The notes beneath the pieces are model-generated. The model did not search any database, was not told where the DNA came from, and saw only the letters and a list, made by a program, of their open reading frames with translations. Source: Deltaproteobacteria bacterium (lineage in GTDB: Bacteria > Desulfobacterota > Desulfuromonadia > Geobacterales > Pseudopelobacteraceae). Taken from it: a stretch of DNA of 64,000 bases. The translations under genes were made by a program, and so were the position numbers. Numbering within the stretch: the stretch's first letter is position 1; the number at the start of each line of letters is the position of its first letter. Of this stretch, positions 890-40,146 are shown in pieces. Location: contig JAJXWO010000001.1 in assembly GCA_021781535.1 (NCBI GenBank), positions 124,001 through 188,000 of the forward strand. The letters run 5' to 3'.

Positions 890-933
890 GGCAACGACGC
901 CCGTGGGATACCTTCCTGCGGGCGTTTTTATTT
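890..933 (+). terminator. Leader terminator with shared nif motif, upstream of nifB
   Basis: The motif GGCAACGACGCC (890-901) runs into a hairpin with arms ACGCCCG (897-903) and CGGGCGT (919-925), followed by TTTTATTT. It sits between the sigma-54 promoter and the nifB Shine-Dalgarno (934-942), so transcription must be antiterminated to reach nifB. Four other nif leaders have the same design. Confidence 0.8.
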
Positions 934-948
934 CGGAAGGAGAAACCC

Positions 949-1818
949 ATGGCAACTGCATGCGAGATGAAGAATAAAATTCAGGGGCACCCCTGTTTTG
1001 GCGGCAATCATCACAAAAACGGCCGTATGCACCTGGCCGTAGCTCCCAAATGCAACATCAAATGCGGCTACTGCACGCGCAAGCATGACTGCGCCAACGA
1101 ATCCCGTCCCGGCGTGACGAGCCGTTTGCTGACTCCGCAAGAGGCAATCGTAAAGGTCCGCGAGGTAATGGCCAGTCCGATAGCAGGTCCGATTATCAAG
1201 GTTATCGGCATCGCCGGTCCCGGGGACCCGCTTGCGAACGAAGAGACTTTCGAAACGTTTGAGCTGGTAAAGAAGGAATTCCCTGACCTGATGCTCTGCA
1301 TGAGTACCAACGGTCTGTTATTGCCGGAATCGATTGATTGTCTGTACGAATTGGGACTTCATAGCCTGACCGTTACCATCAATGCCATCGATCCTGAGGT
1401 CGGTGCCCGGATCTATCGTCATGTAATCTATCACGGCAAACACTACACCGGTGTGGAAGGTGCCAAAATCCTCATTGCCAACCAGTTTGAAGGTCTCAAG
1501 CGCGCCGGTGAACTGGGGCTGACGATCAAAGTGAATTCGGTGCTGGTGCCGGGCGTCAACGACGAGCAGATCCCGCTGATTGCCGCCAAGGTGAAGGAGT
1601 TGGGAGCTTTTGTGATGAACATCATGCCGATCATCCCGCAGGCTGATTTTGCTGATATCGAGCCACCCAGCGAAGCCCGCATGGCCGAGATCAGAAAAAC
1701 AAACGAGGGCATAATAGGCCAGTTTGCCCACTGCAAACAGTGCCGGGCAGATGCCATCGGGCTTATCGGTCAGGATCTGAATATGACGATCGCCGAGGCG
1801 GCCTGTCCCACTACATGA
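949..1818 (+). CDS. nifB: Nitrogenase cofactor biosynthesis radical SAM protein NifB
   Basis: NifB is a cytoplasmic radical SAM enzyme that joins two [4Fe-4S] clusters and inserts a carbide to make NifB-co, the 8Fe core of FeMo-co. The 289-residue product shows the SAM cluster motif CNIKCGYC (Cys35, Cys39, Cys42), the GIAGPGDPLAN segment and a C-terminal CKQCRADAIG cysteine pair typical of NifB. The frame is open further upstream, but the start is set at 949 by the GGAAGGAG ribosome site and by the leader terminator just before it. It is the short form without a fused NifX domain; separate NifX proteins are encoded at 40.2 and 41.0 kb. The stop overlaps the next gene by four bases (ATGA). Confidence 0.97.
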   Translation: MATACEMKNKIQGHPCFGGNHHKNGRMHLAVAPKCNIKCGYCTRKHDCANESRPGVTSRLLTPQEAIVKVREVMASPIAGPIIKVIGIAGPGDPLANEETFETFELVKKEFPDLMLCMSTNGLLLPESIDCLYELGLHSLTVTINAIDPEVGARIYRHVIYHGKHYTGVEGAKILIANQFEGLKRAGELGLTIKVNSVLVPGVNDEQIPLIAAKVKELGAFVMNIMPIIPQADFADIEPPSEARMAEIRKTNEGIIGQFAHCKQCRADAIGLIGQDLNMTIAEAACPTT

Positions 1819-2639
1819 TGATCGAGCCATTCCGCATCAATGATATCGCCACTTTTCTGGAGCTGGCAGCAACGGAGGGGTGGGTGGCCGAAGCGTGGGA
1901 GTTTGATTTCCTCCTGGCAACATTTCCCGCAGGAAGTTTCTGTATGCGGGATGAATCGGGTACGGGTGTCGGTTTTGTCACTTCCATGCGCCATGACCGG
2001 AGCGGCTGGATCGGCAACCTCATCGTCGGTGCGGAACATCGTGGGAGAGGGATTGGCGAGACACTTTTTCTCCGGGCAATTGATGCGCTTCGCGATGCGG
2101 GGGCAGAGACCATCTGGCTGACTGCCTCAAAAACTGGCAAATCCATCTATGAAAAGCACGGTTTTACCGCTGTCGATACCATTTTCCGCTGGACCGGTGT
2201 CGGGAGGCAGCGGCATTCCGGGTATACATCGCATCCGGACGGAAGTGTTGCACTCTCCTCGGCAAGCGGCATCGACAATCAGGCCTGGGGTGACCGGCGT
2301 GAGGCCTTACTGGCGGCAACCGCCGGTCGCGGCAGGGTGTTGGTCAAAGAGCCCGCTTTTCTGGTAATCCAGCCATGCGGAGAGGCCCTGCAGTTCGGGC
2401 CATTCTCGGCGCTGGACACCAGCAGGGCGGAACAGCTCTTCGATGCCGCGCTCTGTTCAGTGCCATGCGGAACAAAAGTCTATCTGGATGCCCCTGCCTC
2501 GAACCGCGCGGCCATGCGCTTTTTCAAGCGGAGAAGAATGCGCATCGCCGGTGCCAATGAGCTGATGTACGCAGGGAATAAGCCATTATATCGCCCCGAA
2601 TATATTTTCGGGCTGGCAACCATGGGGAGTTGCGGGTAG
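1815..2639 (+). CDS. GNAT-family N-acetyltransferase, probably two-domain
   Basis: The 274-residue product has a clear acetyl-CoA-binding motif A, VGAEHRGRGIGETLF, followed by a typical GNAT beta5-alpha4 stretch (ASKTGKSIYEKHGF). The second half looks like a diverged GNAT-like domain with a terminal PASNRAAMRFFKRRRM segment, which resembles the C-terminal part of GNAT folds. The start overlaps the nifB stop as ATGA, so the two genes are translationally coupled. A second ATG lies at 1818. The substrate is unknown. Coupling to nifB suggests a role linked to nitrogen fixation, but nothing in the sequence names the target. Confidence 0.85.
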   Translation: MMIEPFRINDIATFLELAATEGWVAEAWEFDFLLATFPAGSFCMRDESGTGVGFVTSMRHDRSGWIGNLIVGAEHRGRGIGETLFLRAIDALRDAGAETIWLTASKTGKSIYEKHGFTAVDTIFRWTGVGRQRHSGYTSHPDGSVALSSASGIDNQAWGDRREALLAATAGRGRVLVKEPAFLVIQPCGEALQFGPFSALDTSRAEQLFDAALCSVPCGTKVYLDAPASNRAAMRFFKRRRMRIAGANELMYAGNKPLYRPEYIFGLATMGSCG

Positions 2640-3055
2640 ATCAGGTAATTACGATCTCAACCACACTCCACACCACCCACAGACGAATCGTCCCTCTCAG
2701 TAAACCAAAAACCCCCCGCCGGCGTTTTTTAGCACCTTTCGGTCTCTAAATATACAAACCTGTGTATCCAACCCGTACCGGAATAGAAATAAGGCGGCAT
2801 TATGGGCTCAATCGTCACCGACATTACCATGTGTATATATTCTACCAGGCGCCAAATTTCAGCCATTACGGCACGAATTAAGCTGCCTTCTACCATTTTT
2901 GCTGATTTTGTATGCAAAAAAACTAACACCTACCATTGCATGCACACGCCATATAACTTACCGTAACTACTTGTGAATACGGAATAACTCTTTTGGCACG
3001 TTTTATGTAATTAAGGCTGTTACTGTTATAATAAATCGCTAGAGGAGGCCTCACC
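2640..3055. other. Intergenic region, 416 bases, low G+C
   Basis: No convincing gene is seen. A short GC-rich patch at 2715-2730 (CCCCGCCGGCG then TTTTTT) could end the nifB-GNAT transcript. The sequence from about 2740 is AT-rich compared with its neighbours. A 66-codon minus-strand frame (2729-2929) has no ribosome site or recognisable features. Confidence 0.5.
2994..3009 (+). promoter_or_regulatory. Possible weak sigma-54 promoter before the lipoprotein gene
   Basis: TGGCAC-N5-ATGTA has a perfect -24 box, but GT replaces GC at -12. It lies 47 bases before a well-positioned start codon, so it may be active, weakened or accidental. Confidence 0.35.
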
Positions 3056-3478
3056 ATGGTACGTAACTATTTTTTCGCTGTAGCACTTTTTCTCTCCTTG
3101 TCGGCTTGTGCTGGTACACAAAAACAGCTTGACAGCAATCCGGCGTATTCCTCCCATCAATACTCCAGTTCTGATATGGATATCAGCTGGAAAACTGAGA
3201 AGTCAGATAATGCTCTCCACATCGAGGGTATGGTTACAAATACCCGTACAAATCATGTATATAATGGTCTGGAACTTGAGGCAACTCTCCTTGATACCCA
3301 TGGAAAAGTCATTGCCAAACAAACGTACAGTTTTACACCACTCAAATTGAAGGGGTCGGAATCATTCAAAATGACTATTCCTCTTGAAAGTAGCATGCAA
3401 CCTGAAAGTATCAAGTTCAATTACAGATACGGAATAGATGAAGACAGATATTCAGTTAAGTTCGAGTCGAAACTGTAA
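3056..3478 (+). CDS. Small lipoprotein of unknown function
   Basis: The 140-residue product begins with a type II signal peptide: basic MVRN, a hydrophobic stretch, then the lipobox LSAC with Cys at residue 18. The mature part is a single beta-rich domain (SWKTEKSDNALHIEGMVTN... then ELEATLLDTHGKVI...) that resembles FxLYD-type or other Ig-like domains with a consensus of extracytoplasmic beta-strands. A strong ribosome site GAGGAGG sits nine bases before the ATG. It should be anchored in the outer membrane or periplasm. No specific role can be assigned. G+C is lower than in the flanking nif genes, which hints at a different origin. Confidence 0.75.
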   Translation: MVRNYFFAVALFLSLSACAGTQKQLDSNPAYSSHQYSSSDMDISWKTEKSDNALHIEGMVTNTRTNHVYNGLELEATLLDTHGKVIAKQTYSFTPLKLKGSESFKMTIPLESSMQPESIKFNYRYGIDEDRYSVKFESKL

Positions 3479-3709
3479 AAGAGATACATACGAAATGAGT
3501 GCTGCTTGAGCCATTGGTCCATCAATACTACTGTCCGGTGATTTTGATTTCACAGTTATAACTCTCTGAACAATTATCTCGGACAGTAGTGAGGTGGTTA
3601 CAGAATAAACTTCGGAATTGAAGAAGAAATTCGATGATGGAACGGAGTGAATTTTTTTCCCGCGATGAAGGGGAACGACAAACGTTCTTCTGAAAGGACG
3701 GTTATTTGT

Positions 3710-4072
3710 ATGGGACGGATGTTGATCTGTGTAGCCACAACGGTCATTGCACTGGTGGCGGGTGGATGTAGCACTAATAGTTTCAGGGTGTACAAGGATG
3801 GAAAATCGTTCCAAGTTACGAGTGGTAGCTCGGAACTGAAACAGGTCCTCTGTGATTCAGGGGACATTGACAACATATTGAAGAATTCTGAACTGCCAGA
3901 TTCGCTACAAAAGGAGTTGAAAGAGGGTATTTGCGCCTCTAGCAAGACAAAGAAAAATTTGACGGCCACCCTTGAGCGGATGACAAAAGAACAGCACTCA
4001 GCCTTGAAAGATGCTTTTCGTCGAAACGGGTACGAAATCAATAAGGTTGCAGATGCTTGCAGGGGCGGCTGA
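3710..4072 (+). CDS. Small Cys-containing lipoprotein of unknown function
   Basis: The 120-residue product has a type II signal peptide with lipobox VAGGC (Cys about residue 20). The ATG at 3710 is preferred because it places the basic MGRM just before the hydrophobic core and has GAAAGGA upstream; a GTG at 3647 would add an unlikely 21-residue leader. The mature protein has three further cysteines (VLCDSGD, EGICASS, DACRGG) and a charged helical middle. It is not recognised as a known family. It lies alone between nifB-GNAT and nifV, in the same AT-rich patch as the previous lipoprotein. Confidence 0.65.
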   Translation: MGRMLICVATTVIALVAGGCSTNSFRVYKDGKSFQVTSGSSELKQVLCDSGDIDNILKNSELPDSLQKELKEGICASSKTKKNLTATLERMTKEQHSALKDAFRRNGYEINKVADACRGG

Positions 4073-4193
4073 TTGCCGTATTCAGAATGGTTGATATGTA
4101 TCACGTGAAGTTGCAAGCAGGACGTCCATTGATTGACCTCTTCTGCGGTGATATAAGCAGTTCATGTAGTGCCTCTACCGCTTGTTCAACTCT

Positions 4194-4440
4194 CTAGTCC
4201 AGCTCAGATAAAAGCCCCGCCGCTTTTTCAAGATCACCCATATTTCGCCTTACAAGCTCGGACATATCGAAAATAGTGGCAGGGGTGGCGCCAGAACTTC
4301 TTTTTTCATCAGCGGTCGTGCAGGAAACAGTGCTGATTGCTGCCTCGAAGGACACCCTTTTCCCCTGCATTGCCAGCAACCCCGAAAACTCCACCGGTTT
4401 GCTCAGATAATCATTCCCTCTGGCCGCAAGGCAACAGTCA
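4194..4440 (-). pseudogene. Relic of a receiver-Hpt (hybrid histidine kinase) C-terminus
   Basis: Minus-strand translation reads CLAARGNDYLSKPVEFSGLL, which matches the last helix and KP motif of a receiver domain (usually CLAAGMNDYLSKP). A linker follows, then IFDMSELVRRNMGDLEKAAG, the start of an Hpt domain. The Hpt domain stops after LLSELD, well before its phosphorylated His, and the start of the receiver domain is missing. The remains lie directly upstream of the nifV promoter, so a signalling gene was probably lost here by deletion. No start codon or ribosome site supports expression. Confidence 0.6.
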
Positions 4441-4490
4441 CGGTTTTCCCGCGAGGCATCGGGCCGTGGGTGCAAACAATGCTTACGTGT

Positions 4491-4506
4491 TGGCACGCTC
4501 AATGCT
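4491..4506 (+). promoter_or_regulatory. Sigma-54 promoter of nifV
   Basis: TGGCAC-N5-ATGCT shows correct spacing, 84 bases before the nifV ATG. It is one of the best -24/-12 matches in the window. Confidence 0.85.
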
Positions 4507-4531
4507 TATATGTATGGTACATTTCAGGTTC

Positions 4532-4572
4532 GGCAACGACGCCGCGTACCCTTTGGGGTTGCGGCGTTTCTG
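4532..4572 (+). terminator. Leader terminator with shared nif motif, upstream of nifV
   Basis: GGCAACGACGCC (4532-4543) leads into a hairpin with arms ACGCCGC (4539-4545) and GCGGCGT (4561-4567), extended inside by ACCC/GGGT-type pairs, then TTCTGT. The U-run is short, so it may be a weak terminator. The motif matches the nifB leader exactly over 12 bases. Confidence 0.7.
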
Positions 4573-4589
4573 TATCAGAGGAGGCGATC

Positions 4590-5744
4590 ATGACAGACAC
4601 AGAAAACGGACAGACGATTGTTATCGACGATACCACCCTGCGTGACGGTGAACAGACCGCCGGGGTTGTCTTCTCCAAGCGTGAAAAAGTCGCCATTGCC
4701 CGTATGCTGGATTCCATCGGTGTGGGGGAAATCGAGTGCGGCATTCCCGCCATGGGCAGGGAAGAACAGGCTGGCATCCGTACCCTGGTTGACTTGGGGT
4801 TGAACGCCCGCCTGATAACGTGGAACCGGGCACTGGTGCCTGAAATTGAGGCAAGTATTGCCTGCGGCGTGCAGGCGGTGGATATTTCACTTTCGGTCTC
4901 CGATCAGATGATTGCGCATAAACTGCGCAAAAATCGTGCAGCGGTCAAGGAACAGCTCAAAATAGCCCTCGGTTTTGCCAAGCAGCACAACCTCTACGTA
5001 TCGGTTGGCGGCGAGGATGCCAGCCGCGCTGATCTCTCGTTTCTGGTGGAGCTGATGGAGATCACCCGCTCGCTCGGGGGCGACCGCTTCCGTTTCTGCG
5101 ATACGCTCGGCATCATGGACCCGTTCACCATGTTCGACAAGGTGGCATTCCTGCGCCAGGCGGTTCCCGAGGTTGATATCGAGGTACATACACATAATGA
5201 TCTGGGGATGGCCACCGCCAATGCCATTGCCGGTATCCGCGCCGGGGCAAAATTCGTCAACACCACGATCAACGGTCTGGGGGAACGGGCCGGCAATGCT
5301 GCTCTGGAAGAAGTGATCATGGGACTGAAGCATGCCTGCGGGATTGAGACCGGCATCGATACCCACCGCTTCCGGGAAATGTCGCTCTTCGTTGCGAAAG
5401 CTTCCCAGCGCCCGCTGTCGGTGTCCAAACCGGTGGTCGGCTCACGGGTTTTTGCACACGAGTCGGGTCTGCACGCCGACGGGGTCATAAAGGATCCCCA
5501 TAACTACGAAGGGTTTGACCCGGCAGAGGTCGGGCTGACGCGCAGTATCGTGATCGGTAAACATTCCGGCACCGGCGGACTGATCGAACGGTATCGAAGT
5601 ATGGGCATTGCTGTTGACCGCACCCGGGCCGTGCCGTTGCTTGAAATGACGCGGGCCATGTCGTGCAAGCGCAAGCGGGACCTGACCAACGGTGAATTAA
5701 TGTCCATTTATTGTGGCGGAGAGATGCTGCCGAAGGCGGCTTGA
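4590..5744 (+). CDS. nifV: Homocitrate synthase NifV
   Basis: NifV condenses acetyl-CoA with 2-oxoglutarate to give homocitrate, the organic ligand of FeMo-co. The 384-residue product has the HMGL-like TIM-barrel signatures DDTTLRDGEQTAG (residues about 12-24), the metal ligands HTHNDLGMA and the NGLGERAGNAALEE loop, and ends in a short C-terminal region like NifV rather than the long regulatory domain of LeuA. The start at 4590 follows GAGGAGG; the longer upstream frame is leader RNA. It heads a run of four further plus-strand genes. A true LeuA is encoded at 59.9 kb, which supports the nifV assignment. Confidence 0.95.
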   Translation: MTDTENGQTIVIDDTTLRDGEQTAGVVFSKREKVAIARMLDSIGVGEIECGIPAMGREEQAGIRTLVDLGLNARLITWNRALVPEIEASIACGVQAVDISLSVSDQMIAHKLRKNRAAVKEQLKIALGFAKQHNLYVSVGGEDASRADLSFLVELMEITRSLGGDRFRFCDTLGIMDPFTMFDKVAFLRQAVPEVDIEVHTHNDLGMATANAIAGIRAGAKFVNTTINGLGERAGNAALEEVIMGLKHACGIETGIDTHRFREMSLFVAKASQRPLSVSKPVVGSRVFAHESGLHADGVIKDPHNYEGFDPAEVGLTRSIVIGKHSGTGGLIERYRSMGIAVDRTRAVPLLEMTRAMSCKRKRDLTNGELMSIYCGGEMLPKAA

Positions 5745-5783
5745 AAGCAGGCCTATTTTTCAACTCCTTAAGGAGGAGACAAC

Positions 5784-6020
5784 ATGTGTAAATCAGGAAC
5801 TTCTTTTGTACCGATTGCTGAAGCGGCACAGCTTCTGGAGACGACCGAAATGCGGGTATTGATGATGCTCAAAAAAAACGAGCTGCAGGGTAAAATGGAT
5901 GATGACCTCTGGTATGTGGAGCGTTCCTCGCTACAACTGTGCGCCAAGCCAGAGGCGGCAGATATCGTCAAGCCGGGTGGCTGCGGCGGCGGGTGTGGTG
6001 GCGGCTGCGGTGGACATTAA
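5784..6020 (+). CDS. Small nif-cluster protein with helix-turn-helix-like body and Cys/Gly tail
   Basis: The 78-residue product has an N-terminal half resembling a MerR/excisionase-type helix-turn-helix (VPIAEAAQLLETTEMRVLMMLKKNEL, residues 10-35), followed by a short wing-like segment (LWYVERSSL). The tail is strikingly regular: GGCGGGCGGGCGGH, three cysteines spaced by glycines and a terminal His. That tail looks like a metal or Fe-S ligand. An AAGGAGGAG ribosome site precedes the ATG, 39 bases after nifV, so the two are likely co-transcribed. No named family is recognised. A metal-sensing regulator or a small metallochaperone are both possible. Confidence 0.8.
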   Translation: MCKSGTSFVPIAEAAQLLETTEMRVLMMLKKNELQGKMDDDLWYVERSSLQLCAKPEAADIVKPGGCGGGCGGGCGGH

Positions 6021-6027
6021 ATCAATG

Positions 6028-6134
6028 AAACACAGAGGCACGGAGTACACAGAGAAAGTCTTAAATATTTATGGGTTAAACCTGAGCAGTTTTAGATTTC
6101 GATCGTCTCAGGGGTCTCTGTGCCTCTGTGTTTA
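6028..6134. repeat. Dispersed inverted-repeat element, copy 2
   Basis: The left arm AAACACAGAGGCACGGAG (6028-6045) is followed by ACACAGAGAAAG; the right arm ends TCTGTGCCTCTGTGTTT (about 6115-6133). The core is AT-rich and unrelated to the cores of the other copies. It lies between two genes of the nifV run, so it is transcribed and would fold into a long hairpin. Confidence 0.75.
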
Positions 6135-6153
6135 AAAACAGTCGGAGGTTGTC

Positions 6154-6444
6154 ATGCCCATCATCGTCAAAACATCAGACCTGAAATTCAGATATCCGCG
6201 TGACGTTGCCAACCGGGACGCGCCCAAGTTTGCTGGACTCCCTGATCCGGCCCCGTTCAACCGTCACGACCTGTACGAGATTCTGCCGATTCTGTCGGCC
6301 GTCATGGATGCGGTGGAGAGCAGCGACGGCAAGGTGCTGCATCTGATTGAGGATGTTCTCAACGAGATGCCGGGTTTTGTCACCACCCGTGGGGAGGTCT
6401 TTGATTATCTGCGGGGATCGGCGCTGGAATGCTTGAAACGGTAG
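6154..6444 (+). CDS. Conserved-looking small protein of unknown function
   Basis: The 96-residue soluble product has no signal peptide. Visible features are an N-terminal TSDLKFRYPRDVANRDAPKF segment with many charged residues, and a predicted helical second half (EILPILSAVMDAVESSDGKVLHLIEDVLNEM). CGGAGG precedes the ATG. Its end overlaps the next gene by 16 bases, which argues that both are real and co-translated. It is not recognised. Its position inside the nifV transcript suggests an accessory role in nitrogen fixation or its control. Confidence 0.7.
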   Translation: MPIIVKTSDLKFRYPRDVANRDAPKFAGLPDPAPFNRHDLYEILPILSAVMDAVESSDGKVLHLIEDVLNEMPGFVTTRGEVFDYLRGSALECLKR

Positions 6445-6860
6445 GCGACATCTGGGAATTTGCCGATCGGGGGTGCGTCATCGTCATTACCACCAATGGT
6501 TCAATGGCCTGTGATGGCCGTGCGGTCTTCGGGCGCGGCGTGGCGAAACAGGCAACGCTCTGTTTTCCGCGGCTTGCCGAGAAGCTGGGCCGTCTGTTGG
6601 CAGAGCAGGGAAACCACGTGTTCGATCTGGGGCACGGCATCGTCACGTTTCCGGTGGAAGAGACCGCCTGGTCACAGCCGGACCTGCGAATCATCGCCCG
6701 TTCGGCAGAAGAACTGCGGCTGCTGGCAGACCGCTCGGGCTGGGAACGGGTTGTCGTACCGCGTCCCGGCTGCGGTGGCGGCGGCCTGGCGTGGAAGGAT
6801 GTCGAGCCGCTTCTTGCCCCCTGGTTTGACCACCGCTTTACCGTCATCAGTCAGCAATAG
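6429..6860 (+). CDS. Macro-domain-like (ADP-ribose-binding) protein
   Basis: The 143-residue product is a compact single domain. It shows features of the macro domain (Poa1p-like group): an N-terminal VIVITTNGSMACDGRAVFGRGVAKQA segment, which corresponds to the ligand-binding Asn/Gly loop, a central IVTFPVEE strand, and VVPRPGCGGGGLAWKDVEPLL, a glycine-rich loop typical of the phosphate-binding site. Macro domains bind or hydrolyse ADP-ribose and its adducts. It overlaps the preceding gene by 16 bases. In a cluster that also encodes DraT and DraG, a role in ADP-ribose metabolism is an attractive inference but not shown. Confidence 0.75.
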   Translation: MLETVGDIWEFADRGCVIVITTNGSMACDGRAVFGRGVAKQATLCFPRLAEKLGRLLAEQGNHVFDLGHGIVTFPVEETAWSQPDLRIIARSAEELRLLADRSGWERVVVPRPGCGGGGLAWKDVEPLLAPWFDHRFTVISQQ

Positions 6861-6946
6861 CTGGCGGCAGAGCCGTTGCTCTGAAGCGGACAGTGGATGT
6901 TTCAGATGCGGAGTGAATCTCATTCATCAGAGTTGAGGAGCCATTC

Positions 6947-7630
6947 GTGCTGTACATTATCCAGAATGACCCGGAAGTGCCTCCGGGTACTATTATCGAC
7001 CACCTGACCGTACCGTTTGTTGTCTGCCACCCGTACAATGGCGACCACCTGTCGCAGCTGGCGGATATATCCGCCCTCATCGTCCTTGGTGGTGCCATGG
7101 GGGCAAATGATGAGCAGAACCATCCCTTTCTTGCAGAGCTGAAAAAACTGATCCGCCGGGTTGTTGAATCGGGCGTTCCGTATCTCGGCATCTGCCTCGG
7201 CGGCCAGCTGCTGGCGGCAGCCCTTGGCGCAGTGGTGGCATCACGGCGATGGGAGGAGGTCGGGGCTCTGGATGTAGTACTGACTGCGGAAGGGAGACGT
7301 GACCCGTTGTTTCGCGGTATCCGGCAGGAATTCCGGGCATTCCAGTGGCATCATGACAGTTTTGATATCCCGGACAGGGGGATTTTACTGGCTTCTTCGG
7401 CAGCGTGCCCCAATCAGGCGTTCCGGGTTGGCACATGCGCGTGGGGATTACAGTTCCACCCGGAGGTGACGGAGGTGATAATTCGTGGCTGGTGCGCGTG
7501 GGAGCATTCGACAGCTGTTAAAACCGGAGCGTTCGTTGCCGCATTCTCCCGCGAGGCGGACGCATATCGCGCGACCGCCCGGCGCCTTGTTGAGAACTTC
7601 CTGACGGTGGCGGCACACTCGTCAAACTAA
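6947..7630 (+). CDS. Class I glutamine amidotransferase domain protein
   Basis: The 227-residue product is a stand-alone GATase1 domain. The catalytic nucleophile is in PYLGICLGGQLLA, and the His-Glu pair is in LQFHPEVTEVI, so all three triad residues are present. The start is a GTG at 6947, with GAGGAG six bases upstream. Stand-alone members of this family include GMP synthase-like and gamma-glutamyl-polyamine hydrolase-like enzymes; which one applies cannot be told. It is the last plus-strand gene of the nifV run, 86 bases after the macro-domain gene, and faces the pabBC gene. Confidence 0.85.
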   Translation: MLYIIQNDPEVPPGTIIDHLTVPFVVCHPYNGDHLSQLADISALIVLGGAMGANDEQNHPFLAELKKLIRRVVESGVPYLGICLGGQLLAAALGAVVASRRWEEVGALDVVLTAEGRRDPLFRGIRQEFRAFQWHHDSFDIPDRGILLASSAACPNQAFRVGTCAWGLQFHPEVTEVIIRGWCAWEHSTAVKTGAFVAAFSREADAYRATARRLVENFLTVAAHSSN

Positions 7631-7671
7631 ACACCACACATGTTCTCTTGCCGTGATCATGAGTTTGGGCG

Positions 7672-7866
7672 TCAGCAACTTTCCATTTCGATCTGTTCCA
7701 GTAATGCCAGTGCCGGCTGGTCATCATACTGCTCGAAGAGCTCCCTGATATTGTTGATATAGGAATGGATCAGGAACAGCTCGTCGAGTTCACAATGGTG
7801 ACATGGTTGTATGCAACTTTGTTGCCGTATTTGAAGCACTTGTGGGATTTCAAACGATAACGCCAC
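7672..7866 (-). CDS. Possible small protein downstream of pabBC
   Basis: A 64-codon frame starts with GTG inside the pabBC 3' end and overlaps it by 17 bases. The peptide has three Cys near the middle ([13 protein letters not shown]) and an acidic helical end. No good ribosome site is seen. It could be a translationally coupled small protein or chance. Confidence 0.3.
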
Positions 7867-15973: not shown

Positions 15974-15976
15974 GGC

Positions 15977-17229: not shown

Positions 17230-17245
17230 TGGCACGGCAAATGCT
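17230..17245 (+). promoter_or_regulatory. Sigma-54 promoter of nifHD
   Basis: TGGCAC-N5-ATGCT with correct spacing, 158 bases before the nifH ATG. AT-rich sequence directly upstream would help DNA bending by an activator. Confidence 0.88.
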
Positions 17246-17304: not shown

Positions 17305-18270
<966 letters not shown>

Positions 18271-23401: not shown

Positions 23402-23417
23402 AGGCACACCTCATGCA
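23402..23417 (+). promoter_or_regulatory. Sigma-54 promoter of nifK
   Basis: AGGCAC-N5-ATGCA keeps GG and GC at the right distance, with A for T at the first -24 base. It lies 116 bases before nifK. Confidence 0.7.
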
Positions 23418-23460: not shown

Positions 23461-23515
23461 GGCAACGGCGCCCATATACTCTTCATCGTAAGAGGTACGG
23501 GCGCCGTTAGCATTT
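23461..23515 (+). terminator. Leader terminator with shared nif motif, upstream of nifK
   Basis: GGCAACGGCGCC (23461-23472) opens a hairpin with ten-base arms AACGGCGCCC (23464-23473) and GGGCGCCGTT (23499-23508). An inner stem CTCTT/AAGAG carries the six-base loop CATCGT. The U-run after it is poor (AGCATTTCT). Confidence 0.78.
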
Positions 23516-31529: not shown

Positions 31530-31530
31530 G

Positions 31531-31851
31531 TGGTATCCTGCAAAGGCTGCCGCCAAGTTTGAAGAAAGCCTGGGTCACTGCTAGCCATATTTTGATAAGC
31601 TCAACTTGCTAAAGCCGTGCCTACAGATCAAACGCATGCAGAAAAGGTGGGGGAGTCTGCCAAAAAGAGGTACTCTTACCCTCAACAGAGACCTGATTCG
31701 AGCCTCAACAGAGTGTATTGACTATGTTATCACCCATGAGCTCTGCCATCTGCAATGTCATGGTCACAGTTCAGAGTTTTATCGACTGTTGGAAAAGGTG
31801 ATGCCGGATTGGGAGAAGCGGAAGCACAAGTTGGAGCTGGCACTGGTGTAG
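31531..31851 (+). pseudogene. 3' fragment of a YgjP-like (DUF45) zinc metallopeptidase
   Basis: From 31531, in another frame than hsdS, the translation reads WYPAKAAAKFEESLGHC, a TAG stop (31582-31584), then PYFDKLNLLKPCLQIKRMQKRWGSL and THELCHLQ with the HExxH-type zinc motif, ending MPDWEKRKHKLEL. Such metallopeptidases often accompany hsdR. The N-terminal half is missing and one stop codon interrupts the rest. The sequence 3' of the stop is open, 81 codons, and might still be translated from a TTG. Confidence 0.75.
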
Positions 31852-31890
31852 AACCGTCATGATTAAAATTCTTGAGGAGGCCCGAACCCG

Positions 31891-33165: not shown

Positions 33166-33290
33166 TTCGATGGAAGTGCTTTAAAAATGATGTAACGCGC
33201 AGTAATCACTTGCGTTGACGCAGGAATCGGGTATATCTAAACAAGCTCCATCTGCTGAAAGAGGCAAACAGAAAGGGTGAGGGGATTGAT

Positions 33291-35909
33291 ATGCATCCAG
33301 CCAGATTCATGCAGTTCCTGCTCGGCCTGTTGTTCCTGCTTTTTCTCGCCATACCGACTGTTTCTGTTTTAGCCGCCGAATATTCCGCAGGCAGTGTGGC
33401 ACTCACCGAGGCAGAACGCCAATGGCTCAAAGCGCATCCCGTCATCACTCTTGCCCCCGATCCCGACTTCAAACCCATCGAGTACTTTGATAAGAACGGT
33501 GCCTATCAAGGCGCTGCCGCCGACATCATCCGGCTTCTGGAAAAGAAGCTCGGCATCACCATCACCATTGTTCACCTGAAAAATTGGGACGAGGCACTGG
33601 CCAAGTTCAAAAACCATGAAGTGGACCTGTTGGGGGCAATGGTCAAGACCCCTACCCGGGAGACGTTTGCCCTCTTTTCCGAGACCCTGGTAGCCGTGCC
33701 GGGGGGGATCTTTGCTCGGAGTGGTTCGCCAACCAATCTGACGTTGAACAAGCTTAAGGGGAAAAAAGTAGCGGTTGTTTCAAATTATGCCGCTGATGAC
33801 ATCATCAAAAACCAGTACCCGGATATTATCCGGGAGGAAGTTCAGGACGTCTCCACCGGCTTGGCCAAGGCGTCTCTCGGAATGGTGGATGCCTATGTGG
33901 AGAACATGGCCAATGCCACGTTTTACTCACAGGAGGCCGGCATCACCAACCTGCAGCAGGCCGGCACAACCGAATTCGACTATCGGTGGGGGATCGGCAT
34001 CCGCAAGGACTGGCCGGAGCTGCAGGGTATTCTGAACAAGGGGCTGGCGGCGATCAGTCCTGAAGAGAGGAATCAGGCTCTCCAGCGGTGGATCTATATC
34101 GAGGGGCAGCGGTGGCATCCCACCAAGACATTCATTGCCGGGGCAGTGGCCACCGCTCTGGGAGCCCTGTTGCTGCTCGCCAGCTACTGGAACTATTCAT
34201 TGCGAAGGGTGGTCAAGAGGCGCACAGCTTTGCTGCAGCAGGAACTCGATGAGCGGCAAAAAGCGGAAGCGGCCCTCATAACCGTAACCGGCCAGTTGGA
34301 GGAACGGGTCAAAGAGCGGACTGCAGATCTTCAAAAGGAGATTGCCGAGCGGATAAAATCTGAAGAACAGCTTAAAATAAGCGAAGAAAATTATCGCTGC
34401 TTTACGGGACTCACGTCGGATTACGTGTACAAATGCTCCCGTACGGGTGGCGCTCCGTTCCGGGTTCAATGGATTGGAGGGTCAGTTGACGTTATTACCG
34501 GGTACAGTGCAGAGGAGATTTTTGCACAGGGGTGTTGGCTCCCGCTTGTTCATCCTGATGACAGGCCGGCAGTTACCTCTCTTCTCTTTAATATGACTCC
34601 GGGAGAGACGAAACAGGCGGAGTTCAGGCTGGTCACAAAGCAGGGAGAAACCCGCTGGGTATGGGAAACATCGCGATGCGAGGCCGGGCAGGATGAAGGT
34701 GAGCTGGTACTGTTTGGCTCGTCAACGGACATCACCGAACGCAAGCGGGCCGAGGATGAACGCCAGAAGCTGGAACAGCAGCTTCTGCACGCCCAGAAGC
34801 TGGAGAGCCTGGGGGTGCTGGCGGGAGGTATCGCCCATGATTTCAACAACATCCTGATGGCAATCATCGGCAATGCCGATCTGGCCTTGATGCGGATCAA
34901 CAAGGAATCACCGGCCGTAGAGAACCTGCACCGCATCGAACAGGCCGCAGCCCGGGCCGCCGATCTGGCCAAGCAGATGCTCGCCTACTCCGGCAAGGGG
35001 AAATTTGTGGTTGAGAGTCTGGATCTGAATATCCTGCTGGAGGAAATGCTGCATATGCTGGAGGTGTCCATCTCCAAGAAAGCGGTGCTGCGCCTCAACT
35101 TGCACCAGCAACTCCCGCCCGTGGAAGCCGATGCCACCCAGGTGCGCCAGATCATCATGAATCTGGTGATCAACGCTTCCGAGGCGATCGCTGATAAAAG
35201 CGGGGTCATCGCCATCACAACCGGCTGCATGGAGTGTGACCGGAACTATCTGAAAGATGTCTGGCTCGATGAAAACCTGACCGACGGTTTCTACGTGTAT
35301 CTTGAAATTGCCGACAGTGGGTGCGGTATGGACAAGGGTACCATGGCAAAGCTGTTCGACCCCTTTTTCACTACCAAGTTCACCGGCAGGGGGCTCGGCA
35401 TGTCGGCTGTCCTGGGAATTGTGCGGGGGCACAAAGGGGCGATTAAAATCTACAGCGAAAAAGAGAAGGGAACCTCATTCAAGATCCTGCTTCCCGCCAG
35501 CGGGCGCCCTGCCAGTCTGTTCAACAGCGATAACCATACAGACCAATGGCAGGGAAGCGGCACGGTCCTGTTGGTTGACGATGAAGAAACGGTGCGCGGC
35601 ATCGGCGCCGAAATGCTGAAAGAGCTTGGTTTCACCGTGGTCACCGCCGATGATGGCCGGGAGGCGCTCGAACGCTTCAAGTCCATGCCTGATGTAGACT
35701 TTGTGATCCTCGACCTGACCATGCCGCACATGGACGGAGAACAGTGCTTCCGCGAACTGCGGCAACTGCAGGCGGACGTCAAGGTGATCATGTCGAGCGG
35801 CTACAACCAGCAGGAGGTCACCCAAAAGTTTGCCGGCAAGGGGTTGGCGGGTTTCGTCCAGAAGCCGTACCGGCTGTCAACTTTGAAAGAAGTGATCAGA
35901 AGTCTGTAA
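33291..35909 (+). CDS. Hybrid sensor histidine kinase with periplasmic solute-binding domain
   Basis: The 872-residue protein consists of a signal peptide, a periplasmic SBP_bac_3-type domain (about 40-270, HPVITLAPDPDFKPIEYFDKNG...), one transmembrane helix (TFIAGAVATALGALLLLASYW), a coiled coil, a PAS domain (about 370-490), a HisKA domain with phospho-acceptor His in GGIAHDFNNIL, an HATPase domain (NLVINASEAI, DSGCGMD, GRGLGMSAVLGIV) and a C-terminal receiver domain with the phospho-Asp in FVILDLTMPHMDG. It should sense a small periplasmic ligand such as an amino acid. No DNA-binding partner is adjacent. The start is the first in-frame ATG with GAGGGG upstream. Confidence 0.93.
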   Translation: MHPARFMQFLLGLLFLLFLAIPTVSVLAAEYSAGSVALTEAERQWLKAHPVITLAPDPDFKPIEYFDKNGAYQGAAADIIRLLEKKLGITITIVHLKNWDEALAKFKNHEVDLLGAMVKTPTRETFALFSETLVAVPGGIFARSGSPTNLTLNKLKGKKVAVVSNYAADDIIKNQYPDIIREEVQDVSTGLAKASLGMVDAYVENMANATFYSQEAGITNLQQAGTTEFDYRWGIGIRKDWPELQGILNKGLAAISPEERNQALQRWIYIEGQRWHPTKTFIAGAVATALGALLLLASYWNYSLRRVVKRRTALLQQELDERQKAEAALITVTGQLEERVKERTADLQKEIAERIKSEEQLKISEENYRCFTGLTSDYVYKCSRTGGAPFRVQWIGGSVDVITGYSAEEIFAQGCWLPLVHPDDRPAVTSLLFNMTPGETKQAEFRLVTKQGETRWVWETSRCEAGQDEGELVLFGSSTDITERKRAEDERQKLEQQLLHAQKLESLGVLAGGIAHDFNNILMAIIGNADLALMRINKESPAVENLHRIEQAAARAADLAKQMLAYSGKGKFVVESLDLNILLEEMLHMLEVSISKKAVLRLNLHQQLPPVEADATQVRQIIMNLVINASEAIADKSGVIAITTGCMECDRNYLKDVWLDENLTDGFYVYLEIADSGCGMDKGTMAKLFDPFFTTKFTGRGLGMSAVLGIVRGHKGAIKIYSEKEKGTSFKILLPASGRPASLFNSDNHTDQWQGSGTVLLVDDEETVRGIGAEMLKELGFTVVTADDGREALERFKSMPDVDFVILDLTMPHMDGEQCFRELRQLQADVKVIMSSGYNQQEVTQKFAGKGLAGFVQKPYRLSTLKEVIRSL

Positions 35910-35968
35910 CCGGTCTCTTCGAGCTCCAGGGTGTGATGTCGTGCTGGTGCAAGTACAACAAGGTTACT

Positions 35969-36925
35969 ATGGATTTGGATCGTCCTTTAAGCGAAGGTGT
36001 TGATGAGGAGCCCTGGCTGGAAATTCTGCCGGCAGACGTGGCGGCCCTGCCCGATGCCGCCCATGATCACCGGCGTATTCAGCTCTGGGCGTTGGCGCTG
36101 GACTCCCGCCTGGTCCCGTGCCAGATTGTCAGGGACGAGCACGGCTGGCATCTGCTGGTGCCGCCGGAGCATCATGCGACAGCCGTACGCGAGCTGTCTT
36201 GCTTTGAAAAACTGAACCGCGACTGGCCACCTCCTGATCCGCCGCCCCATCATCTGGCGGAGAATACCCTGACAACGCTCTCGATTCTGCTCCTCCTCGC
36301 GACCTTTCACAACATCACCCAGCTTGGTGTCTCTGCGACCGGTATCCCCATGCCCGACTGGGTCTCCCTCGGGAATGCCCAGGCGGCAAAAATACTTGAC
36401 GGGGAGTGGTGGCGAGTCGTGACGGCGCTTACCCTTCACGCCGATTGGGTCCATCTCTCCAGTAATCTGGCCATAGGCGGGATATTTATTGTCTTTCTCT
36501 GCCGGGAGCTCGGCTCGGGGCTGGCCTGGAGCCTGCTGCTCGGTGCCGGAGCCTGTGGTAATCTGATCAATGCCTGTCTGCAATCTCCCACCCATAGCTC
36601 GATCGGTGCGTCCACCGCCGTGTTCGGCGCAGTCGGTATCCTGGCGGCGCTCAGTCTGGTGCGGTACCGGCGCAATCTCCGCACCCGCTGGATGCTTCCT
36701 GTCTCTGCGGCCCTGGCGTTACTGGCACTGCTCGGCACGGAGGGTAAAAATACGGATCTGGGTGCGCATCTGTTCGGTTTTATCTCCGGTTGCTGTCTCG
36801 GAATGATGACGGAATACCTTATCGGGAGGCATGGGCGCCCCGGGCGCTTCCTGAATGCTCTGCTGGCGATTTCGAGTATTGCTGTGGTGGTGGCAGCATG
36901 GGGGGCGGCATTGCTTAATAAATAA
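35969..36925 (+). CDS. Rhomboid family intramembrane serine protease
   Basis: The 318-residue membrane protein has a soluble N-terminal 90 residues and about seven hydrophobic segments. The active-site motif GASTAVFG (catalytic Ser) is clear, the partner His is in GAHLFGFISG, and the conserved TALTLHADWVHLSSNL segment is present. ATG 35969 has AAGG close upstream; another candidate is 35936. It lies 59 bases after the hybrid kinase. Substrate unknown. Confidence 0.88.
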   Translation: MDLDRPLSEGVDEEPWLEILPADVAALPDAAHDHRRIQLWALALDSRLVPCQIVRDEHGWHLLVPPEHHATAVRELSCFEKLNRDWPPPDPPPHHLAENTLTTLSILLLLATFHNITQLGVSATGIPMPDWVSLGNAQAAKILDGEWWRVVTALTLHADWVHLSSNLAIGGIFIVFLCRELGSGLAWSLLLGAGACGNLINACLQSPTHSSIGASTAVFGAVGILAALSLVRYRRNLRTRWMLPVSAALALLALLGTEGKNTDLGAHLFGFISGCCLGMMTEYLIGRHGRPGRFLNALLAISSIAVVVAAWGAALLNK

Positions 36926-37001
36926 GCACAAGCGGATGTCCCTGACCCAGTGTGTATCTAAAAAAGTAGTATATTCAGTATATTGCAGATGTCTCGCGCA
37001 T

Positions 37002-37017
37002 TGGCATGCCCCATGCT
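37002..37017 (+). promoter_or_regulatory. Sigma-54 promoter of nifEN
   Basis: TGGCAT-N5-ATGCT, 68 bases before the nifEN start. Unlike the other nif leaders, the following leader lacks the shared GGCAA motif and the terminator. Confidence 0.82.
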
Positions 37018-37084
37018 CTACCTGATGGCAGAACGACAGTTTTGCGAACTATCCTGCTTATCAGGGTCAGGTGAGGAGCATGCA

Positions 37085-39844
37085 ATGGCAAAACCCGATT
37101 ATTACGATGTAACTGATTGCGAAACCAACGACAAAGGTGCTCCCAAGTTCTGCAAGAAATCGGAACCGGGTGAGGGAACCGAGCGTTCCTGTGCCTATGA
37201 CGGGGCCCGGGTCGTGCTGATGCCGATTACCGATGCCATTCATCTGGTGCACGGGCCGATCGGCTGCGCCGGCAACTCCTGGGACAACCGGGGTGCCAGA
37301 TCATCGGATTCTCAACTCTACCGGCGCGGCTTTACCACCGAAATGCTGGAAAATGACGTTATCTTCGGCGGCGAGAAGAAACTCTACCGGGCGATCCTCG
37401 ATCTTGCCGAGCGCTACAAGGATCAGGCGAGGGCCATCTTCGTCTATGCCACCTGTGTTACCGCCATGACCGGCGATGATGTGGAGGCGGTTTGCACGGC
37501 GGCTGCGGCAAAAGTCGCCATTCCGGTCATCCCGGTCAACACCCCCGGGTTCATCGGTGACAAGAATATCGGCAACCGCCTGGCCGGAGAGATCCTCTTC
37601 AAGTATGTAATCGGCACGACCGAGCCGCCGCTTCTGGGTGAATATCCGATCAACCTGATCGGCGAGTACAACATCGCCGGTGACCTGTGGGGGATGCTGC
37701 CGCTTTTTGACCGGCTCGGAATCCAGATCCTCTCCTGCTTCAGCGGCGACTCGAAGTTTGAGGAGTTGCGCTATGCTCACCGTGCCAAGCTCAATATCAT
37801 CATCTGCTCCAAATCGTTGACCAATCTTGCCAAGAAGATGCAGAAAACTTACGGCATGCCATATATAGAGGAATCTTTCTATGGTATGACCGATACCGCC
37901 AAGGCGCTGCGCGATATCGCCCGTGAACTGGACAATATTGTCAACGGTTTGGAGAAGCGGGTCATGCAGGATCGGGTGGAACGGCTGATCGAAGAGGAGG
38001 AGGCAAAATGCCGCGATGCGATTGCACCCTACCGGGAGAGATTGGAAGGCAAGACGGCGGTTTTATTCACCGGTGGCGTCAAGACCTGGTCGATGGTTAA
38101 TTCCCTGCGCGAGTTAGGTGTGGAGGTCCTGGCGGCCGGCACGCAGAACTCGACCCTCGAGGACTTCTACCGCATGAAGGGGTTGATGCATAAAGATGCC
38201 AAAATTATTGAAGATACCTCCACAGCGGGGCTGCTGGCGGTCATGCGCGAGAAAATGCCCGATCTGATCGTCGCCGGCGGCAAGACAAAGTTCCTGGCGC
38301 TGAAGACCAAGACCCCTTTTATGGATATCAATCATGGTCGTTCCCACCCCTATGCCGGCTATGACGGGATGGTGACCTTTTCAAAACAGCTGGACATGAC
38401 GGTCAACAATCCGATCTGGCCGGTTCTTAATGCTCTGGCACCGTGGGAGAAGAGTCCTGATGAGCTGCAGGCTGACGTGGCTGCTGCGGCGGGGCATGCC
38501 GAAACCTTTATGGCCGAGGATATTTCGGCGTCACGGGTCAAGGTTTCCAGCAAGGCGGCCACCGTCAATCCGCAGAAGAACTCGCCCGCGCTGGGCGCCA
38601 CCATGGCCTACCTGGGGATCAACAACATGCTCGGGTTGCTGCACGGCGCCCAGGGATGTTCGACTTTTATCAGGCTGCAGCTGTCGCGGCACTACAAGGA
38701 GTCCATCGCCCTGAATGCCACCGCCATGAGCGAGGATAGCGCGATCTTTGGCGGCTGGGAGAACCTGAAAAAGGGGATCGGACGGGTGATCGAGAAGTTC
38801 AGTCCCGAGGTGGTCGGGGTGATGACAACCGGCTTGACGGAAACCATGGGAGATGATGTTCACAAGATCATAAAGGAGTTCCGTACGGAACATCCGGAAC
38901 ATGATGCCGTCCCGATTATCTGGGCGTCCACACCGGATTACTGCGGCTCCATGCAGGAAGGATACGCCACCGCGGTGGAGGCGATCGTCGGAAGCCTGGC
39001 TGAAGGTGGCATGGCCGTGCCCGATCAGGTCAACCTGCTGCCGGGGGCTCATCTGACCCCTGCCGATGTGGAAGAGCTGAAGGAGCTGATTGAGTCATTC
39101 GGGCTGACGGTGCTCTGCATTCCTGATATTTCCAACGCCATGGACGGGCATATCGACGAGGTCGTATCACCGCTGTCAACCGGCGGTATACCTGTTGAAG
39201 AAATCAAGAAAGGTGGGCGCAGTGTTGCGACGTTATATGTCGGTGATTCGCTGGCGAAGGCCGCTCTCAAGCTGAAGGAAAAGTTCGCTATCCCCGCGTA
39301 CGGCTTCACGTCGCTCACCGGTCTTGCCGAGACTGACCGCTTCATGGAGGTGCTGTCCGCCATAAGCGGCCGACCGATTCCGGAAAAAAACCGTCGTTGG
39401 CGGAGTCGCCTGATGGATGCGATGGTGGACAGCCATTACCAGTTCGGTACCAAGAAGGTTGCCATCGCTTTGGAGTCTGACAATCTCAAGACACTGACCG
39501 GTTTCTTGGCAGGAATGGGGTGCGAGATTCAGGCGGCGCTGTCTGCCACCAGAACACGCGGGCTGGATGTGCTGCCGAGCGCCAACGTTTTTGTCGGCGA
39601 TCTGGAGGATCTGGAAAGCGCCGCGGTTGGCGCCGACCTGATTGTGGCGAACTCCAACGGCCGCCAGGCGGCGGCCAGGCTCAAAATCGGCGCCCATCTG
39701 CGGGCCGGATTGCCGTCCTTTGATCGTTTGGGTGCTCACCAGAAAGTATGGGTAGGGTATCGCGGCACGCTGAACCTGGTATTCGAGACCGCCAACCTGT
39801 TCCAGGCGAATGCCAAAGAGGCGCAGAAGCTGGCGCATAATTGA
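37085..39844 (+). CDS. nifEN: NifEN fusion: nitrogenase FeMo-co scaffold
   Basis: NifEN is the scaffold on which NifB-co is matured to FeMo-co before transfer to NifDK. Here the two subunits are one 919-residue polypeptide. Residues 1-480 are NifE-like (ERSCAYDGARVVLMPI, HGPIGCAGNSWDNRG, YATCVTAMTGDD), and from about 498 the chain is NifN-like (NSPALGATMAYLGINNML, HGAQGCSTFIR, SAMSED-type ATAMSEDSAIFGG). The joining segment is about 40 residues of Ala-rich and charged sequence. The frame is open upstream, but 37085 is chosen since it follows GTGAGGAGC and begins MAKPDYYDV. Fused nifEN is known in Geobacter relatives. Confidence 0.97.
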   Translation: MAKPDYYDVTDCETNDKGAPKFCKKSEPGEGTERSCAYDGARVVLMPITDAIHLVHGPIGCAGNSWDNRGARSSDSQLYRRGFTTEMLENDVIFGGEKKLYRAILDLAERYKDQARAIFVYATCVTAMTGDDVEAVCTAAAAKVAIPVIPVNTPGFIGDKNIGNRLAGEILFKYVIGTTEPPLLGEYPINLIGEYNIAGDLWGMLPLFDRLGIQILSCFSGDSKFEELRYAHRAKLNIIICSKSLTNLAKKMQKTYGMPYIEESFYGMTDTAKALRDIARELDNIVNGLEKRVMQDRVERLIEEEEAKCRDAIAPYRERLEGKTAVLFTGGVKTWSMVNSLRELGVEVLAAGTQNSTLEDFYRMKGLMHKDAKIIEDTSTAGLLAVMREKMPDLIVAGGKTKFLALKTKTPFMDINHGRSHPYAGYDGMVTFSKQLDMTVNNPIWPVLNALAPWEKSPDELQADVAAAAGHAETFMAEDISASRVKVSSKAATVNPQKNSPALGATMAYLGINNMLGLLHGAQGCSTFIRLQLSRHYKESIALNATAMSEDSAIFGGWENLKKGIGRVIEKFSPEVVGVMTTGLTETMGDDVHKIIKEFRTEHPEHDAVPIIWASTPDYCGSMQEGYATAVEAIVGSLAEGGMAVPDQVNLLPGAHLTPADVEELKELIESFGLTVLCIPDISNAMDGHIDEVVSPLSTGGIPVEEIKKGGRSVATLYVGDSLAKAALKLKEKFAIPAYGFTSLTGLAETDRFMEVLSAISGRPIPEKNRRWRSRLMDAMVDSHYQFGTKKVAIALESDNLKTLTGFLAGMGCEIQAALSATRTRGLDVLPSANVFVGDLEDLESAAVGADLIVANSNGRQAAARLKIGAHLRAGLPSFDRLGAHQKVWVGYRGTLNLVFETANLFQANAKEAQKLAHN

Positions 39845-40054
39845 CCGCCGCGCGAAAGTGTGGCCTCAGAGTTGAGTCTGGCGCACATTCTCCACCACGC
39901 TTTTCAATATCCGGCTGTACGCATGCCCGCAAAAGATTGCCCGCGTGCAACAGGCAATCAGATATGATTACTTATTAAGCAGTGAATTATTCCCCGGCAG
40001 CTTCCGCAATGCTGCTGTGGGGTGAAAAGCTTTAAGATTCAGTATGATACGTTT

Positions 40055-40070
40055 TGGCACGTCACGTGCT
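40055..40070 (+). promoter_or_regulatory. Sigma-54 promoter of nifX
   Basis: TGGCAC-N5-GTGCT with the correct spacing, 98 bases before the nifX ATG. Confidence 0.85.
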
Positions 40071-40105
40071 AAACAGCCATTGACATGGTTTTCTACAGGC
40101 ACAAC

Positions 40106-40146
40106 GGCAAAGGCGCCGCCATCAGAGAGATGGTGCGCCTTTTTCC
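40106..40146 (+). terminator. Leader terminator with shared nif motif, upstream of nifX
   Basis: GGCAAAGGCGCC (40106-40117) is identical to the nifH leader over 12 bases. AAAGGCGC (40109-40116) pairs with GCGCCTTT (40135-40142), and CCATC/GATGG pairs inside. TTTTTCC follows. The inner hairpin resembles that of nifH. Confidence 0.85.

Follow-up and report, generated by a model that had tools for sequence, protein, structure and literature searches.

The DNA considered here, called the window below, is a stretch of 64,000 nucleotides (nt) from contig JAJXWO010000001.1 (positions 124,001 to 188,000, forward strand) of a Deltaproteobacteria bacterium assigned to the Pseudopelobacteraceae, order Geobacterales. 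Its genes, named from NCBIfam profiles, include the nitrogen fixation genes nifB, nifV, nifH, nifK and nifX, and the untranslated leaders of these five genes share a 12-base motif, GGCAANGNCGCC, that is the subject of this analysis. The NifB protein scores 341 bits against TIGR01290 and covers model positions 4–284 of 441; it falls just under the cut-off of 343.65 because it is a short form of the protein.

The shared hairpin of five nif leaders

The motif has seven exact matches in the window, compared with a mean of 0.23 and a maximum of two in 100 dinucleotide shuffles. The original prediction, which was made from the letters of the window, had named the five matches before nif genes; all five are real and on the plus strand, and each lies, as had been claimed, downstream of a sigma-54-type promoter and ahead of the start codon (Table 1). 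The promoters of nifB, nifV, nifH and nifX read TGGCAC-N6-TGC. The first hexamer of the nifK site, AGGCACACCTCATGC, is one base off TGGCAC, and this site was missed by the promoter scan and found by eye. Two matches had gone unmentioned: one between glnB and amtB that has no terminator, and one at 44917(+), antisense within a second amt gene, which is probably due to chance. The whole genome contains 48 matches of the 12-mer against 20 of the reversed pattern. Among the 35 of these 48 that were examined, a terminator arm with a T-rich tail is found at the five nif sites only, and the other 30 all lie inside open frames of at least 120 codons, except for the amtB site.

Read as RNA, the 12-mer is a mini-hairpin, GGC[AANGNC]GCC, in which a GGC/GCC stem closes a hexaloop whose first base is A and whose fourth is G (A1 and G4). 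Such a loop on a stem of three or more pairs is described as the hallmark of ANTAR-target RNAs, in which hairpin P2 shares bases with the 5′ arm of an intrinsic terminator (Ramesh et al. 2012, PMC3369931, in the passages cited here). All five leaders in the window have this loop and stem, and with the terminator overlap added the 12-mer is well supported as a putative P2 element.

The original prediction also held that the 3′ part of the motif forms the 5′ arm of a terminator-type hairpin, and folding finds the downstream pairing in all five leaders. Since the 3′ half of P2 is the 5′ arm of the terminator, the two structures exclude each other. The long hairpin is present in the predicted optimum fold of every leader; P2 by itself has an energy of −2.8 kcal/mol, and the energy of the leader rises by 5.5–16.6 kcal/mol when P2 is forced to form. 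The bases GGCAA, which had been thought to lie outside the core of the stem with a role of their own, turn out to be the 5′ side of P2 (GGC) and the first two bases of its loop. For nifB and nifV, GGCAAC lies outside the predicted terminator stem, and in the window's nifB leader the sole contact of G4 with that stem is a G-U pair to the U-tract; for nifH, nifK and nifX the stem extends further into the 12-mer.

Other identities of the motif were rejected. It is not simply terminator sequence, as GGCAAC of nifB lies outside the stem and is nevertheless invariant except at loop position 3 (29 leaders). Nor does a second ANTAR hairpin seem to lie downstream within the terminator loop, as A1 and G4 are not preserved in the loops inspected by eye. 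A known Rfam element was likewise dismissed, since at gathering thresholds the window yields only a T-box elsewhere.

Table 1. Leader elements and flanking features, in positions of the window
Feature	Position	Strand	Basis
draG-like ADP-ribosylglycohydrolase gene, runs off left window end	1..313	−	profile match
sigma-54-type promoter of nifB, TGGCACATTCTATGC	857..871	+	promoter scan
nifB P2 mini-hairpin GGC[AACGAC]GCC, about +8 or +9 from the inferred start	890..901	+	
nifB terminator hairpin and U-tract, overlaps P2	896..930	+	folding
nifB, short form, 289 aa	949..1818	+	TIGR01290
sigma-54-type promoter of nifV	4491..4505	+	promoter scan
nifV leader P2 mini-hairpin	4532..4543	+	pattern match, folding
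nifV terminator hairpin, overlaps P2	4538..4572	+	folding
sigma-54-type promoter of nifH	17230..17244	+	promoter scan
nifH leader P2 mini-hairpin	17305..17316	+	pattern match, folding
nifH terminator hairpin and U-tract, overlaps P2	17308..17349	+	folding
sigma-54-like site of nifK, AGGCACACCTCATGC	23402..23416	+	by eye; similar in 4 other split-nifK loci
nifK leader P2 mini-hairpin	23461..23472	+	pattern match, folding
long nifK hairpin overlapping P2, without good U-tract	23462..23511	+	folding
sigma-54-type promoter of nifX	40055..40069	+	promoter scan
nifX leader P2 mini-hairpin	40106..40117	+	pattern match, folding
nifX terminator hairpin and U-tract, overlaps P2	40109..40144	+	folding
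sixth P2-like hairpin, between glnB and amtB, lacking a terminator; membership doubtful	49627..49638	−	pattern match

Conservation of the leaders and the ANTAR regulator

The combination of sigma-54 promoter and motif was searched for in 39 genomes of the genus and gave 100 matches in 37 of them, while the reversed pattern gave none. We fetched the 96 matches that lie outside the window's own genome. Known nif genes follow 94 of them (nifH 32, nifB 24, nifEN 18, nifX 13 and nifV 7); of the remaining two, one precedes a homologue of the open reading frame at 1740–2639 (GNAT-type) and one is not a nif site. The spacing from promoter to motif ranges from 15 to about 60 nt. Terminators were recognised automatically by a stable hairpin that uses the 3′ half of P2 and by at least four T within ten bases at the 3′ end of the hairpin. 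This test was applied to 104 nif leaders, made up of the 94 genus sites, the GNAT one, the five of the window and four further nifK leaders, and was passed by 96. The non-nif genus site and the amtB site, both outside the 104, fail it.

A set of nifB leaders was also collected through the NifB protein, with the motif playing no part in their selection. There are 29 usable leaders in this set of 30 (one ends at a contig edge), and GGC, A1, A2, G4 and GCC are invariant in all 29; 27 of them match the pattern, and the remaining two read GGCAACGATGCC. One of the two, L354, also has a change in the other arm of the terminator, from GGGCGT to GGGCAT. The bases just 5′ of P2 are far more variable than P2 itself (28 leaders). 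From the promoter spacing, transcription of nifB in the genus would start 4–8 nt before P2 (24 leaders); nifH leaders have 26–50 nt before P2.

The original prediction had noted that nifK, split here from nifHD, carries its own copy of the device, and this is not a one-off. We fetched 30 nifK loci and called a locus split where the 1500 bases upstream lack nifD. Motif and hairpin are present in all five nifD-less loci and in none of the 24 with nifD just upstream; the last locus ends at a contig edge and has no motif in its 141 upstream bases. The statement that nifEN lacks the device holds for this genome, in which nifEN has a sigma-54-like site, TGGCATGCCCCATGC (found by eye), and no motif, but it does not extend to the genus, where the 18 nifEN leaders counted above carry the motif.

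A search of the genome for an ANTAR-domain response regulator, on whose existence the original prediction depended, found exactly one ANTAR domain (72.9 bits, cut-off 27.3). Its gene, G000:C21:123126-123689(+), ends about 310 bp to the left of the window on the same contig and adjoins nifB, with the draG-like gene between them. The protein has 187 residues, a receiver domain (PF00072) followed by the ANTAR domain (PF03861), and keeps Asp54 and the acidic pocket D9-D10. Among protein structures its best matches are 1s8n (“putative antiterminator”), which is Rv1626 (PMC8934654), and EutV (6wsh, 6ww6). Eleven contact residues are named in the text on the EutV-RNA structure (PMC8934654), and the structure alignment finds eight of these EutV contacts identical in the regulator: R142, K143, K147, K149, E160, Y164, M172 and R175. 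By analogy, Arg141, Lys148, Glu159 and Tyr163 of the regulator would hold G4, and Met171 would be the loop plug.

Among the matches listed, the closest relatives of the regulator come from uncultured metagenome genomes entered under Desulfuromonadaceae, Geobacteraceae or plain Proteobacteria, the top two being 98 and 99% identical, and the closest isolate is Oryzomonas japonica at 73%. Some sister genera have ANTAR regulators with degenerate receivers, in which Asp54 is replaced by Glu or the acidic pair is lost (L064–L066; L047, L060, L203, L210); the regulator beside the window keeps the full phosphorylation site.

Of the 34 genus genomes that have both nifB and an ANTAR gene, 25 have the two no more than 7 kb apart. 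Across the order (141 genomes, 29 genera) the motif pattern occurs in 127 genomes, with one reversed match, and an ANTAR domain in 129, as a single copy in 122. This co-occurrence is no proof of a connection because it is confounded by genome completeness: nine of the 12 genomes without an ANTAR domain are less than 90% complete.

Hairpin P1 in the genus and its relatives

To compare leaders for an upstream hairpin we defined a strict P1 as an A1 G4 hexaloop on a Watson-Crick stem of at least four pairs, and a relaxed P1 as one whose first loop base is A or G, with G-U pairs allowed and a stem of at least four. The nifB leaders of a sister family, again found through NifB, have a P1 in 27 of 30 cases by script (shuffle mean 1.5, largest 7) and in 28 when every P2-like match is tried. 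The linker between the hairpins is 6–12 nt, close to the 5–12 nt given for the eut leaders of E. faecalis (PMC3369931, in the passages cited). A typical P1 reads AGGTAC[AACGAT]GTATCT, the first loop base being A or G. L376 has no P1, and L381 has one only if a bulge or another loop size is allowed. Covariation was counted in 25 of the 30 leaders, leaving out these two, the near-duplicate L399, and L380 and L398, whose P2 was missed by the first pattern. In this set P1 is 98% paired, with double-sided changes at four of its six pairs. The stem of P2 is constant and 100% paired, and its loop varies at positions 3, 5 and 6. In the other families a strict P1 occurs in 13 of 35 motif-found leaders (shuffle mean 0.3). 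By gene, these are the glnB operon (7/9), nifH (3/6, one doubtful), nifB (1/2, overlapping the inferred start) and leaders without an assigned gene (2/2), with none before nifV (0/9), nifEN (0/5) or nifX (0/2); for this sorting the outer-membrane protein of the glnB operon was recognised by eye.

In the genus of the window a strict P1 is found in one of 94 leaders. The relaxed form gives 1/30 for nifB, 2/32 for nifH, 1/18 for nifEN, 1/13 for nifX and 0/7 for nifV, all within the range of shuffles. The five leaders of the window contain no convincing P1, the sole upstream candidate (nifH) overlapping P2 itself, and a second genus of the same family has none in 14 readable leaders (21 matches). 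The cultured relative Oryzomonas japonica likewise has leaders in which no P1 is recognisable (L300). In nifB a start only 4–8 nt before P2 would leave no room for P1. On their sequences, then, the leaders of the window are P2-only, without a recognisable P1, a point that the original prediction had not made.

We considered whether Tyr163 of the regulator marks the recognition of a single hairpin. Residue 163 is Tyr in those genus regulators that were read, and three other families have Phe in their resident regulators, as far as these were read. It is only a lead, because the second genus of the window's family, also without P1, has Phe in two of four. The sister-family genome G065 has two ANTAR matches, one of them in an open frame of only 95 residues. 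Its nifB locus, the L376 mentioned above, combines a P2-only leader with an 86%-identical NifB and an adjoining Tyr-type regulator, and this ANTAR-nifB cassette, of the type of the window's genus, was apparently acquired whole.

Two variants were seen in sister groups. Seven of the 30 sister-family nifB leaders (L377, L379, L380, L381, L384, L388 and L404) apparently hold two attenuators in series, with P1, P2 and terminator followed by TCGGC[AARGGC]GCTG with its own hairpin and T-run. In one sister genus the nifV leaders L224–L227 have a P2-like hairpin near the ribosome-binding site and, by eye, no evident terminator.

It is highly likely, in our view, that an ANTAR regulon spans the nif genes and that the five leaders serve in it as transcription attenuators, with P2 caught by a single regulator without P1. 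Sigma-54 RNA polymerase would start at each promoter when nitrogen is short, and the nascent leader would form either P2 or the terminator built with its 3′ half. The terminator is predicted to be the more stable, so transcription would stop by default. The single ANTAR regulator encoded beside nifB, presumably phosphorylated at Asp54 and dimeric, would be activated when nitrogen fixation is needed, grip the emerging P2 hexaloop through G4 and hold P2 until the polymerase has passed the U-tract. With no recognisable P1 the regulator would have to catch P2 directly; in nifB the hexaloop would sit almost at the 5′ end of the transcript. Either direct capture suffices in this lineage or some other feature replaces P1. 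The protein is tied to the leaders in three ways, by the proximity of the ANTAR gene to nifB, by the G065 cassette and by the split-nifK loci. The nif-wide regulon of the original prediction is thus well supported by motif, ANTAR gene and conservation, from which we infer antitermination itself. We also think it probable, though with less assurance, that the whole diazotroph family has dispensed with P1 and that its single-hexaloop attenuators act within the time window of a moving polymerase.

These leaders could instead be canonical dual-hairpin targets whose P1 goes unrecognised because it has an unusual form, such as another loop size, a broken stem or a position in a longer upstream transcript. 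Sister families do keep P1 before nifB, before nifH in some loci and before the glnB operon, and a few genus nifH leaders, by eye, show a stem with a 13–15-nt loop in the 26–50 nt before P2. Set against this are the near absence of strict P1, the relaxed counts within shuffle range for every gene class and, if the promoter spacing is right, the few nucleotides before P2 in nifB, so that we regard a hidden P1 as unlikely. Real terminators might also be read by some factor other than an ANTAR protein (another RNA-binding protein, a small RNA, Rho or translation), with A1 and G4 a coincidence. The two genomes G047 (100% complete) and G054 (99%), from one genus, would fit this, as they keep the leaders without a recognisable ANTAR protein (their P1-like loops have five bases, by eye), and so would the nifK and amtB sites, which lack a normal terminator. 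We nevertheless judge it quite improbable, given that the same P2 stands behind a textbook covarying P1 in the sister family, that a single ANTAR gene lies near nifB in most of the genus genomes with both, and that loop positions 3, 5 and 6 vary while 1 and 4 do not. The strict conservation of the motif and its constant strand would suit an operator in the DNA downstream of sigma-54 promoters, in place of an RNA element. Such an operator hardly comes into consideration, however, with a spacing from the promoter that varies so widely and P1 stems that covary in the sister family; by script, moreover, 96 of 104 leaders use the site as the 5′ arm of a hairpin.

Several observations weigh against attenuation by a single ANTAR regulator, the genomes G047 and G054 among them. 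As the stem of P2 is invariant in the genus nifB set, it offers no covariation support there. Covariation of the genus nifB terminator is not clearly above shuffles, as 31 of 500 have at least as many doubly changed pairs and 40 of 500 at least the same score. Simple base-opposite counts of terminator covariation were muddied by bulged stems and were replaced by folding. The starts are themselves derived from promoter spacing. Eight of the 104 leaders fail the automatic terminator test, although by eye they have a G-C-rich hairpin (poor in L188) and a T run. The nifK hairpin is followed by GTTAGCATTT, with no real U-tract, and the label of terminator is therefore weakest at this gene. In the sister family the stem of P2 is imperfect in L380 and L398 (2 of 30 nifB leaders). 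Three of the EutV contacts differ in the regulator (R168 to Q, N173 to D and R177 to T), and no kinase was seen by eye among open frames of at least 120 residues in the 12.4 kb around its gene, where no profile search was made. The genus member G012 has an ANTAR gene without a full nifB and without the motif. Finally, the genome is a draft of 3.8 Mb in 133 contigs, 95% complete and with 8.87% contamination, though the regulator and the leaders lie on one contig.

Neighbouring genes and relation to known ANTAR systems

Between 19972 and 30078 the window holds two SNF2-type genes, one parting nifK from nifHD and the other downstream of nifK. In two of the four other split loci, as in the window, the upstream neighbour of nifK is a SNF2-type helicase gene that runs in the opposite direction. 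A draT gene, at 41324–42136(+), and the draG-like gene lie in or beside the nif region, where post-translational control of nitrogenase is possible beside the attenuators.

The hairpin between glnB and amtB has a longer stem broken by one mismatch and lies about 25 nt before the ribosome-binding site of amtB, and it could act on translation. It is kept in four of 30 glnB loci of the genus, which together with the missing terminator led us to reject a conserved amtB attenuator. The operon that holds glnB, amtB and the gene of a putative outer-membrane protein without a Pfam match has its own leader at 51026–50880(−). In the genus this leader keeps a sigma-54 site and lacks the P1-P2-terminator arrangement of relatives. 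Instead, the 20 of 30 loci shown with a promoter share a conserved region, some 80 nt long and much diverged in L253, that reaches to the ribosome-binding site; by eye, the element CTTTCATC within it has two alternative partners, one upstream and the other the ribosome-binding site. A search of Rfam gave no meaningful match for this element. The T-box leader lies at 59620–59831(+), scores 131.5 bits and precedes an open frame at 59917.

In Geobacter sulfurreducens GnfR reportedly acts on nif genes by ANTAR antitermination, and the regulator found here resembles that system in being a putative response regulator of nitrogen fixation. In passages on that species, gnfR (GSU2822) and gnfK (GSU0941) are named as nitrogen-fixation regulators (PMC7962754); gnfR is also named in PMC11934962. 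A nitrogenase ANTAR regulon of three units was predicted in Pelobacter carbinolicus with a dual-hairpin model (PMC3369931, Figure 9B text). The window resembles that regulon in having several nitrogenase-related units under ANTAR-type RNA elements and differs in that its leaders are single-hairpin and so outside that search model. Because of this prediction and the naming of GnfR and GnfK, a nif ANTAR regulon as such is already known in kind, and what is new here is the anatomy of the single-hairpin attenuator.

The leaders resemble those of eut, nas and ami (regulated by EutV, NasR and AmiR) in the P2 hexaloop, its overlap with a terminator, the presence of an ANTAR gene and the nitrogen genes downstream, and differ from these dual-hairpin leaders in lacking a recognisable P1 (PMC3369931, in the passages cited). 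Deletion of P1 ablated eutP induction (PMC3369931), and a survey of actinobacterial ANTAR targets speaks, in the text cited, of dual stem-loops (PMC8164766). In the passages of Walshe et al. 2022 (PMC8934654) one EutV dimer holds one hexaloop, and one hexaloop is the minimal binding motif; in the model given there, P1 recruits EutV before P2 emerges and both hairpins are obligatory in vivo. Why there should be two hairpins when a dimer holds one at a time is posed there as a remaining question. Single-hexaloop sites are expected there where the polymerase sets no time limit, in contrast to the single hexaloops described here, which lie inside attenuators, where the limit applies. Among the open-licence papers listed by literature searches we found none on single-hexaloop ANTAR attenuators.

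If the leaders work as proposed, P1 cannot be a basic component of ANTAR antitermination. Sister bacteria, most of them with a single ANTAR protein, differ in whether they control nifB with a P1 and provide a natural comparison on the two-hairpin question; search models built on dual hairpins would miss many leaders of the P2-only kind. In this order nitrogenase control may act after initiation and separately for each gene, nifK having a gate of its own where it lies outside the nifHD operon.

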